From Chitinolyticbacter meiyuanensis (GTDB lineage: Bacteria; Pseudomonadota; Gammaproteobacteria; Burkholderiales; Chitinibacteraceae): 64,000 nt of DNA. The notes under the pieces were generated by a model. That model worked only from the letters and a program-made list of their open reading frames with translations, had not been told where the DNA came from and did no database searches. The stretch covers positions 124,001 through 188,000 of the forward strand of contig NZ_CP041335.1 of assembly GCF_008033135.1 (NCBI RefSeq), read 5' to 3'. Of the stretch, positions 57,991 through 59,879 are shown piece after piece. Both the position numbers and the translations under genes were made by a program. Every line of letters begins with the position of its first letter. Positions within the stretch are counted from its first letter, which is position 1.

Positions 57991-58347
57991 ACCTGCGGCC
58001 TTGGCGCACCCGGCTTGTAGTCGGGTGCTTCAACAAGCCACTTGAAATGCCCGGCCGATTCACACCAGTGACATACGGATCGCTACAGCGGTCAATTGCC
58101 GTTCGCATATGACGAATGGCCTTCCGTAAGAAAACCTGTCGAGCGCGCACGAAGCGCAGCCGCCTGTTCGCCGAAAACCAGCACACGTTTGACCTCAAAT
58201 CCTGTTATTTGCAAGCTTGCTGTTCTTAAATTGTGCAAGCAATTGCTGATATGAAATTTCCGACCGCACCTTTGGTCGGATGGCACTATATCCCGCTCGG
58301 TCATGCGCTCTAGATTTGGCTTCCCACTTTCTGCCCGAGGAGGCCGT
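57991..58347 (+). other. AT-rich upstream region of the PEP-CTERM gene
   Basis: The 357 bases hold no ORF of note. GC content falls markedly from about 58080 onward. It contains the palindrome GCAAGCTTGC at 58211-58220 and a hairpin CCGACC/GGTCGG at 58260-58279. A TGGCAC at 58281-58286 recalls the -24 half of a sigma-54 promoter, but the -12 GC is one base off. AGGAGG precedes the ATG at 58348. Confidence 0.5.
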
Positions 58348-59187
58348 ATGCTGCGCAAGAAATATCTGGCATTGCTGGGCATTTATTCCGCACTACTCGT
58401 ATTGAGTCCTAGCGCCAATGCTGCATTTTCTGACTATTCAAGATGGCTAAAATTAAACGGTGTGTACGATCCAAACACCGGAACTCGCATACCTATTGAT
58501 GGCGCTACTGTAGCAGGAAAAAGTTATGACGTTTTCTATGGCGGCACTCGCTATACCAGATATGATCTGACGTTTGACATGCAACATGTTTCGCACTCTA
58601 GCAGTGCAATTTATTCAGCCGAAGCAGCGGCAAGTGGCACCCTAATGGGCGCTCATTTGTTGTCGTTCCGCCATGGAAAACTTGAAACTGAAGACCACAG
58701 CGCCAACCGTTACGACGGCGAAATGGTTTATCTTGCAGCCCTCGCAGGCGCATATGCCTATGTGTCGATTAACCAAGCCTATTTTTCATCCCCAAGGGAT
58801 TACAGCTTCAACTACGGTGAGCATCCTGACCCATGGCTCCCCCAATTCAAGGGCGGATATTCGGAAATAAAGACCACGATCAACCCCTATGAACACCAGT
58901 TTCAGTTCGATGGTAGCTTTGCCAAGAAAACAAATTTTTTTGCCAATGCTTATTTAACAAGGGACCTAATATATGAGCCCTACTTCGGCACCACCGGCTC
59001 TATATTTTTTGATCCCCGCATTTCCATATCCTTTATTGCCCCTCCCGTACCGGAACCCGCCAGCTATGCACTGCTCGGTTTCGGTGGGCTGGCTGGCTGG
59101 CTGCGTTTGCGACGACGCAAGGCCTTGAGCCGTGCGGTTGGGAGCCAAACCCCGGCGATTCGAAGGCTTCGTGTATGGGACTTTTGA
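58348..59187 (+). CDS. PEP-CTERM sorting-domain protein
   Basis: The 279-residue exported protein has a signal peptide (YLALLGIYSALLVLSPSANA), a beta-rich body of unknown function, and a C-terminal PEP-CTERM signal: VPEPASYALLGFGGLAGW then LRLRRRK. Such proteins are processed by an exosortase (EpsH/XrtA), not in the window, and often end in the extracellular matrix. The 21 residues after the basic cluster (ALSRAVGSQTPAIRRLRVWDF) are an unusual tail, as the signal normally ends there. The coding sequence is visibly richer in A and T than every neighbour, suggesting later acquisition. The ATG follows a perfect AGGAGG. Confidence 0.85.
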   Translation: MLRKKYLALLGIYSALLVLSPSANAAFSDYSRWLKLNGVYDPNTGTRIPIDGATVAGKSYDVFYGGTRYTRYDLTFDMQHVSHSSSAIYSAEAAASGTLMGAHLLSFRHGKLETEDHSANRYDGEMVYLAALAGAYAYVSINQAYFSSPRDYSFNYGEHPDPWLPQFKGGYSEIKTTINPYEHQFQFDGSFAKKTNFFANAYLTRDLIYEPYFGTTGSIFFDPRISISFIAPPVPEPASYALLGFGGLAGWLRLRRRKALSRAVGSQTPAIRRLRVWDF

Positions 59188-59284
59188 TAGATAAGCGACC
59201 AATCCGCGCACGACCCAGCACCGGCTGCGATGACCAACCCAGGCAGAACGGCCGCAGCGATGAACAGCGCTGACCAGCGGTACT

Positions 59285-59315
59285 CTTGAAATACGATGCC
59301 ATGCACCGATCTAGT
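59285..59315 (+). promoter_or_regulatory. Possible hsp20 promoter
   Basis: CTTGAAA at 59285-59291 fits the -35 of sigma-32 promoters (and TTGAAA that of sigma-70). A clear sigma-32 -10 (CCCCAT-type) is missing; TCTAGT at 59310-59315 is a weak sigma-70 -10 with an 18-bp spacer. If used, transcription would start near 59322. Confidence 0.3.
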
Positions 59316-59351
59316 GGTTAACGGACGCTCACGTTGAGGTCTGTTAACCAC
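59314..59351 (+). other. Hairpin in the hsp20 leader
   Basis: GTGGTTAAC and GTTAACCAC are perfect outer arms (59314-59322, 59343-59351); GGAC pairs with GTCT-type bases inside, and CTCA with TGAG (59328-59331/59335-59338), for about 17 pairs with one bulge. It may be the first stem of the RNA thermometer or, if transcription starts within it, a DNA operator. Confidence 0.55.
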
Positions 59352-59378
59352 ATATCGCTTGAATTTCAACGAGGATAT
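59352..59378 (+). promoter_or_regulatory. ROSE-type RNA thermometer covering the hsp20 ribosome-binding site
   Basis: The UCGCU at 59355-59359 matches the conserved U(U/C)GCU of ROSE elements. It can pair with the Shine-Dalgarno AGGA at 59372-59375 exactly as in ROSE: U355-A375, C356-G374, G357 bulged, C358-G373, U359-A372, extended by AUA/UAU (59352-59354 with 59376-59378) and U360-G371, G361-C370. The ATG of hsp20 is nine bases after AGGA. Melting at high temperature would free the ribosome-binding site. Confidence 0.7.
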
Positions 59379-59384
59379 TCGATC

Positions 59385-59837
59385 ATGGCAACTTTTGACT
59401 TTGCTCCGCTGTACCGTTCCGCCATCGGCTTTGACCGCTTTGCCCAATTGGTCGACGACGCGCTACGCAGCGATGCGCAAGTGAGCTACCCGCCGTACAA
59501 CATCGAGCTGGTCGCCGAAGACCAGTACCGCATCACCATGGCCGTTGCCGGCTTCTCGCGCGACGAGCTGGAACTGGAAACCGAGCGCGATGTGCTCAAG
59601 GTCACCGGTCGCCGCCAGCGCAGCGAAACCAAGTCCACCTACCTGCACCGCGGTATCGCCGCGCGCGATTTCGAGCACCGCTTCAGCCTCGCCGACCACG
59701 TCAAGGTCGTTGGCGCCAGCCTCGACAACGGCCTGCTGCACATCGACCTGGTGCGCGAAGTGCCCGAGGCGTTGAAGCCGCGCCGCATCGCCATCGGCGG
59801 CGCCGATGTGCATCTGATCGATCAGAAAGCCGCCTGA
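59385..59837 (+). CDS. ibpA: Small heat shock protein Hsp20 (IbpA-like)
   Basis: The 150-residue chaperone has an alpha-crystallin domain (about 37-130): YPPYNIELVAEDQYRITMAVAGFSRDEL, RHRGIA-like YLHRGIAARDFEHRFSLADHV and a short tail with IAIGGA near the C-terminus, where an I-x-I-type anchor (RRIAI) can be read. The N-terminus MATFDFAPLYRSAIGFDRF is IbpA-like. It holds unfolding proteins for DnaK/ClpB. The 5' leader carries a ROSE-like thermometer (59352-59378), the typical control for IbpA. Confidence 0.93.
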   Translation: MATFDFAPLYRSAIGFDRFAQLVDDALRSDAQVSYPPYNIELVAEDQYRITMAVAGFSRDELELETERDVLKVTGRRQRSETKSTYLHRGIAARDFEHRFSLADHVKVVGASLDNGLLHIDLVREVPEALKPRRIAIGGADVHLIDQKAA

Positions 59838-59851
59838 TCGCAACGCGCATG

Positions 59852-59879
59852 AAAAAGCCGGGCATTGCCCGGCTTTTTC
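59852..59879. terminator. Bidirectional terminator between hsp20 and the DUF4124 gene
   Basis: A-run, AGCCGGGC, loop ATT, GCCCGGCT and a T-run. It lies between convergent genes and works on both strands. Confidence 0.9.

Follow-up and report, generated by a model that had tools for sequence, protein, structure and literature searches.

A probable two-hairpin ROSE-type RNA thermometer in the leader of the ibpA-type hsp20 gene of Chitinolyticbacter meiyuanensis

The leader of the only hsp20 (ibpA-type) gene found in Chitinolyticbacter meiyuanensis is, with high probability, a short two-hairpin RNA thermometer of the ROSE type, carried on a transcript that starts at about position 59320 and opening on heating at its second hairpin (hairpin II). 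Positions are those of the window, the stretch of 64,000 nucleotides that was analysed (contig NZ_CP041335.1, positions 124,001 to 188,000). This reading is built on sequences, conservation, covariation, promoter position and predicted folds, from which sigma-32 use, the start site, melting and translational control are inferred. The ROSE assignment, already made in a first-pass annotation of this DNA, is borne out by the anatomy of the leader, its gene context, its promoter and its conservation; as an RNA thermometer, the element is of a known kind and an ordinary example of it.

The gene (59385–59837, forward strand) is predicted to encode a small heat-shock protein of 150 amino acids that matches PF00011 with an E-value of 4.6e-18, the only such match in the 4.33-Mb genome; among NCBIfam models IbpA ranks best and IbpB second, neither reaching its cut-off. 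The nearest relative, 92% identical, is from Chitinolyticbacter albus of the same genus, and the host, suspected from the letters alone to be a betaproteobacterium, is one (Chitinolyticbacter, Neisseriales). Of 120 genomes sampled from the order, only 8, that of the window among them, gave an Hsp20 match at E ≤ 1e-15, a patchiness suggestive of loss or transfer. G373, G421 and G465, all from the family of the window genome, had no match to the window protein at this threshold. Downstream of the gene, a probable intrinsic terminator (59852–59878) can be seen directly in the sequence as GCCGGGC-ATT-GCCCGGC between A5 and T5; it was absent from the list of the program scan. The upstream neighbour of hsp20 (58303–59187) encodes a protein with a PEP-CTERM motif (PF07589).

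Folding of 59314–59390 gave two hairpins as both the minimum free energy and the centroid structure. In the predicted thermosensing hairpin II (59352–59378, forward strand) the anti-Shine–Dalgarno (anti-SD) sequence UCGCU (59355–59359) lies opposite the SD sequence AGGA (59372–59375) with G59357 bulged, and the SD is followed by nine bases and then by the ATG of hsp20 at 59385. The pairing of UCGCU with AGGA around one bulged G, as first proposed, was thus recovered in both folds and is matched by the conservation described below. Hairpin II alone has a predicted stability of -5.3 kcal/mol at 37°C, which is ordinary (z = -0.34; 71 of 200 shuffled sequences were equally stable), so that stability proves nothing here and conservation is the evidence. 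Removal of the bulged G in silico shifted this value to -9.1 kcal/mol. In an equilibrium folding model the SD was unpaired at 6% at 25°C, 17% at 42°C and 36% at 55°C, a modest opening on heating that lends weak backing to melting, and hairpin I stayed closed up to 55°C.

Hairpin I was originally described as a longer hairpin at 59314–59351, and this inverted repeat is real (forward strand, -23.4 kcal/mol). Its conserved part is the core at 59320–59345, which reads AACGGAC, bulged G59327, CUCA, the loop CGU, UGAG and GUCUGUU, and which is supported by covariation, by RNAalifold and by covariance model R1 (below). The unbroken pairs below the pair flanking the bulge number 12 in the window and from 1 to 8, mostly 5 or 6, in 32 other leaders, none of which has the unbroken extension; the outer six pairs (59314–59319 with 59346–59351) probably lie upstream of or at the start site and would then be untranscribed. 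Folded from 59320, the leader adopted the same structure at -17.5 kcal/mol (z = -2.1, 3 of 200 shuffled sequences being equally good); with some coding sequence added (59320–59420) the fold was no better than shuffled sequences (z = 0.03). An exchange of arms between the hairpins, both of which contain CGCU and GAGG, was rejected as an equilibrium alternative because forcing the leader into the exchanged folds raised its energy by 8.8 and 12.8 kcal/mol over the native one.

Upstream of the hairpins is a sigma-32-type promoter identified by pattern match (59285–59312, forward strand), consisting of CTTGAAA (59285–59291), a 13-nt spacer and ACCGATCT (59305–59312). The pattern searched, CTTGAAA-N12-15-CCNATNT, follows the sigma-32 promoter consensus; it matched the window only at the hsp20 promoter, by comparison with 0.00 matches in shuffled sequences. 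A slightly looser pattern gave three matches in the genome, equal to the backward control, and one of these is a well-formed site directly upstream of grpE-dnaK (L186 96–123; G000:C1:1202395–1202422), which supports the heat-shock reading of the promoter. In 32 of 33 leaders TTGA lies 38–42 nt ahead of the base preceding the hairpin I bulge (sd 0.88, with the scan limited to 33–48 nt upstream), while the distance between that base and UYGCU ranged from 25 to 77 nt (sd 14.6). A constant distance on one side and a variable one on the other indicate that hairpin I keeps its place relative to the transcript's 5' end; and together with the promoter position the constant distance places the probable start at about 59320 (59318–59321). 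It had been left uncertain whether the start might fall inside the first hairpin: judged by promoter and distance it most likely does fall inside the longer repeat, yet the conserved core would remain whole. One leader, L032, has a UGCCC variant and is without a promoter at the usual distance.

Conservation was assessed in an orthologue set made up of the window and the 33 loci with the best E-values (L002–L032, L044 and L048) of 80 from the genome collection; L013, L018 and L024 were placed in this 'beta' set by similarity, their records naming Moraxellaceae or Proteobacteria. UYGCU and AGGA were both found in all 34 leaders, with core columns that are invariant or nearly so. In a broader sample of the class, 369 genomes were searched with the Hsp20 protein and 45 matched at E ≤ 1e-15; exclusion of the window leader left 44 ibpA-type leaders, and 40 of these have the UYGCU/SD arrangement (AGGA, GGAG, GAGG or AGGG being accepted as SD); 100 shuffled sets averaged 0.25 such leaders and never exceeded 2. 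Although the ordinary stability of hairpin II would fit a chance pairing between a pyrimidine run and a purine-rich SD downstream of it, without any regulation, these counts leave that explanation scarcely credible. The four class-sample leaders without the arrangement were L132 and three from one genus (L125, L127 and L129); the latter three lack UYGCU and have GGCUCAC...GAGC ahead of an AGGAGA site, possibly another form of SD masking. The order sample (120 genomes) includes, apart from the window genome, seven that carry eight such hsp20 genes between them, and all eight leaders have the arrangement, a count made without a shuffle control.

Covariation in hairpin II can scarcely be tested since four of its eight pairs are invariant, and the near-invariance of the SD strand could be due in part to the SD itself. 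Hairpin I is more informative: across the 33 leaders 98.3% of alignment cells are paired, both partners have changed in six of nine pairs and covariation scores 0.43 versus 0.23 in shuffles, none of 500 scoring as high. Shifted registers of the same alignment are only 30–49% paired, and RNAalifold, run unguided, recovered the same nine pairs; leader L005 is without hairpin I. These data also bear on whether hairpin I could be a DNA operator, CIRCE or another palindrome, instead of an RNA structure, as the long perfect inverted repeat at the promoter of this genome might suggest. The consensus of CIRCE is TTAGCACTC-N9-GAGTGCTAA; allowing up to three mismatches, a search for it in the window gave no match. 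Moreover, 24 of the 33 beta leaders have a U-G wobble as the pair beneath the bulge, an invariant single-base bulge breaks the symmetry expected of DNA, and the outer repeat is peculiar to this genome among the leaders compared, all of which makes an operator very unlikely.

The leader alignment also yielded a working covariance model, R1, for which 21 of the 33 orthologous leaders were used. Neither the window nor its genus is represented in it. MAFFT had shifted the SD of the window and of L002, which were excluded for that reason, and the window was also to be kept for testing; also left out were L017, L026, L027 and L029, the long-linker leaders L007, L009, L010, L015, L019 and L025, and L005. 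R1 matched the window at 59320–59387 with 47.9 bits (E = 5.6e-11) and nothing further up to an E-value of 10; over the whole genome the same element scored E = 3.8e-9 and the next match E = 2.1. In the class sample 23 of 369 genomes were matched at E ≤ 0.01, 13 at hsp20 by position and ten elsewhere, so that R1 recovered 13 of the 45 genomes having such an hsp20. When the reading frames at the ends of the ten other matches were judged by eye, none read as hsp20, and these matches are probably due to chance, including L092 at E = 1.3e-6. L092 (G060:C276:6690–6751; 38.1 bits) precedes an open frame of 219 codons that does not read as hsp20. In the order sample, 20 of 120 genomes were matched at E ≤ 0.1, with fourteen matches elsewhere than hsp20; R1 found the leader in six of the eight genomes having the gene and missed G372 and G435. 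R1 is a beta-centred model and no universal finder.

Some R1 matches were paired. Three Aeromonas loci (L037 1929–1992, L040 1945–2009 and L042 1945–2009) have a second match just downstream of hsp20 that is stronger than the upstream one, perhaps an ibpB-like gene with its own thermometer. One genome of the same order as the window has two adjoining matches before a single hsp20 (L158 and L161, G479:C127:17936–18055); another contig of that genome carries a second hsp20, which has its own leader.

A covariance search with the Rfam ROSE models had been suggested as a check on the element, and this gave no match at E ≤ 10 in either 58900–59600 or 59300–59400; by covariance match, the leader thus lies outside the Rfam ROSE families (RF01832, RF02523 and RF00435) as these are now modelled. 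Searches of 20 relatives returned 24 matches, among which only one to ROSE_2 (L046) and one to ROSE_3 (L058), both below threshold, were to ROSE models, the rest being to unrelated families. ROSE_2 matched none of 274 class genomes under stricter filters and, among 14 controls, only E. coli. As the models are this narrow, a missing Rfam match says little.

The unpaired G of hairpin I is invariant in all 33 leaders. Its occurrence was measured with a descriptor of leader hairpins with one bulged base, after leaders without a recognised UYGCU-type/SD arrangement had been dropped (4 of 34 in the 'alpha and other' group, namely L055, L056, L071 and L073, and 4 of 44 in the class sample); L005, L047 and L050 were also excluded. 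A bulged G on the 5' side was found in 27 of 33 beta leaders (1.3 expected), 10 of 11 gamma leaders (0.1 expected), 23 of 30 alpha and other leaders (3.1 expected), 7 of 8 order leaders (0.1 expected) and 17 of 40 class-sample leaders (1.1 expected), these being counts from related leaders and not independent events. Other bulged bases and bulges on the 3' side were at or near chance in most groups, the exceptions being four bulged A in the class sample (0.9 expected) and five 3'-side bulged C in the alpha group (2.8 expected). The pair below the bulged G was Y-G in 27 of 27 beta and 22 of 23 alpha best matches, and that above it C-G in all of them; in the gamma and class-sample leaders the flanking pairs were mixed.

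A table of 23 alpha leaders, illustrative and giving no count of prevalence, likewise has a lower stem that varies around a YGC/GG step that is kept, with one U-A exception. This table was anchored by hand, as MAFFT placed no useful gaps in the alpha hairpins; it combines 18 of the 23 descriptor matches with five leaders missed by the descriptor and picked by eye, the 3' anchor of each row being chosen for most pairs, and L052, L053 and L061 (near-duplicates), L069 and L079 were left out. The opposite strand in the table is mostly CGGG or similar, and a role of the hairpin I GAGG as an SD mimic was accordingly rejected as a conserved property. An unpaired base is also drawn in the Rfam ROSE_2 and ROSE_3 consensus structures, so the bulge itself has been seen before; the word 'bulge' is absent from the main text of PMC3669281, and no discussion of a hairpin I bulge was found in the literature examined.

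What hairpin I does is less clear, the role of 5' hairpins being described as not fully understood (PMC3669281). It may be merely a stabiliser of the mRNA 5' end and a folding aid, its bulged G reflecting common descent, an explanation that is compatible with a thermometer and to which we give a little less than an even chance. Such a role has been suggested for the Pseudomonas hairpin I, where disruption of four G-C pairs opened the SD (PMC3669281), and a hairpin tied in position to the 5' end rather than to the SD would suit it. Against this, a pure stabiliser would have no need of a destabilising bulge, and in the beta leaders and the hand-made alpha table it is the lower-stem bases that vary freely while the bulged G and its neighbours are fixed.

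A second possibility is that the leader is primarily a site of autorepression by IbpA, an aggregation sensor in which hairpin I and its bulged G are recognised and temperature sensing is secondary or absent. In E. coli, Cedecea neteri and Vibrio harveyi, IbpA binds its own leader and R93 (R94 in Vibrio) is required, and repression by E. coli IbpA also requires an aromatic residue at position 34 (PMC10474464). The window protein has both of these features of a self-repressing IbpA, Y35 and R94 aligning with E. coli Y34 and R93; among the 33 orthologues Y is present at position 35 in all and R at 94 in 32, with one gap. The invariance of a bulged G in a hairpin predicted not to melt is also in favour. 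Replacement of E. coli R97 by Ala abolished repression while Lys retained it (PMC10474464), however, and this residue is H98 in the window protein and H in 31 of 33 orthologues. The literature examined yielded neither binding data for a betaproteobacterial IbpA nor the part of the leader that IbpA recognises. Primary autorepression is possible but doubtful, and both activities could operate together.

A combination of thermometer and autorepression would be that ibpA ROSE leaders of alpha- and betaproteobacteria have two YGC/GG modules, each a bulged G flanked by a Y-G and a C-G pair; the copy in the weak SD hairpin would melt, and the stable 5' copy, unable to do so, would serve as a landing site, most likely for IbpA, so that temperature and free chaperone would both be sensed. 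The YGC/GG step of hairpin I resembles that of the thermosensor itself (YGC versus GG) and that of the oppF thermometer described in PMC11342760. We consider this reading rather unlikely, and hairpin I as a binding site for IbpA is a conjecture; if a stable YGC/GG copy were a landing site, the unexplained 5' hairpin of ROSE elements would gain a function. In any case, with a bulged G that is invariant and recurs in alpha and beta leaders, the role of this 5'-anchored hairpin becomes a question about one base.

For the thermometer itself, we propose that a heat-shock sigma factor would start the transcript at about 59320 and that hairpin I would form at the 5' end and remain closed. At low temperature, UCGCU of hairpin II would pair with the SD AGGA and exclude 30S subunits; the bulged G would hold this hairpin weak enough to open with heat, allowing IbpA to be made.

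PMC3669281 and PMC11182007 describe ROSE-like elements by features that the leader shares: a 3'-proximal hairpin in which U(U/C)GCU and the SD form an imperfect pairing around a predicted bulged G; a total of two hairpins where the class has two to four, the first with covariation; and the usual context of a small heat-shock gene behind a heat-shock promoter, here recognised by pattern only. ROSE elements are spoken of for alpha- and gammaproteobacteria (PMC2873474; PMC10474464), and no report of one at a betaproteobacterial ibpA or hsp20 was found among the open-licence PMC papers that the searches listed. The ROSE thermometer of ibpA-type genes is a well-conserved two-hairpin element across the betaproteobacterial orthologues examined, and the window example is missed by Rfam. 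The species name 'boronicumulans' presumably belongs to Variovorax, a betaproteobacterial genus. A related ROSE-G thermometer has been tested from a species of that name (PMC12857270), and betaproteobacteria are among the ROSE-like ABC-transporter cases of PMC11342760; the expectation that a betaproteobacterial ROSE element would be an addition has to be narrowed to this extent, ROSE-like elements being not wholly new there.

The leader resembles the Rfam ROSE_2 consensus (RF01832; enterobacterial ibpA, including a match in E. coli), which has five pairs, an unpaired G and three pairs, followed by a hairpin of UCGCU with AGGA. It differs in having two hairpins, whereas those of E. coli and Salmonella comprise three to four (PMC3669281), and ROSE_2 has no match in the window. 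Hairpin I of ROSE_3 (RF02523), AUGCCG...CGGGU, as seen in a weak match at an alphaproteobacterial locus, likewise has a U-G pair, an unpaired G and a C-G pair; unlike the window element, ROSE_3 has the anti-SD strand ACUCGCU, and it too is without a match in the window. The fourU thermometers of Salmonella place four U residues against the SD and are without UYGCU. Mentioned in PMC3669281, they have the masking of the SD in common with this leader. The crystal structure of the ROSE-like thermometer of P. stuartii oppF contains a U-G wobble, an extruded G and a C-G pair (PMC11342760). Hairpin I of 24 of the 33 beta leaders shares this step, the window itself having C-G, G and C-G; in oppF, unlike hairpin I, the step sits in the SD hairpin of an ABC-transporter gene (PMC11342760).

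Pseudomonas ibpA, as described in PMC3669281, has the same plan of two hairpins with a stable 5' hairpin I, U(U/C)GCU set against the SD, a sigma-32-type promoter and an ibpA gene, in a host that is not betaproteobacterial. G-C pairs enclose its SD core above and below, whereas the window has A-U below and U-G above. Pseudomonas hairpin II energies range from -4.1 to -7.6 kcal/mol (PMC3669281), and the value for the window, -5.3 kcal/mol, falls within them. In Pseudomonas, hairpin II melts between 25°C and 42°C and hairpin I does not; reporters of five species rose 3.3- to 8.3-fold from 25°C to 42°C; and hairpin II became too stable when the bulged G was deleted, a deletion that in P. putida was combined with a further change (PMC3669281).
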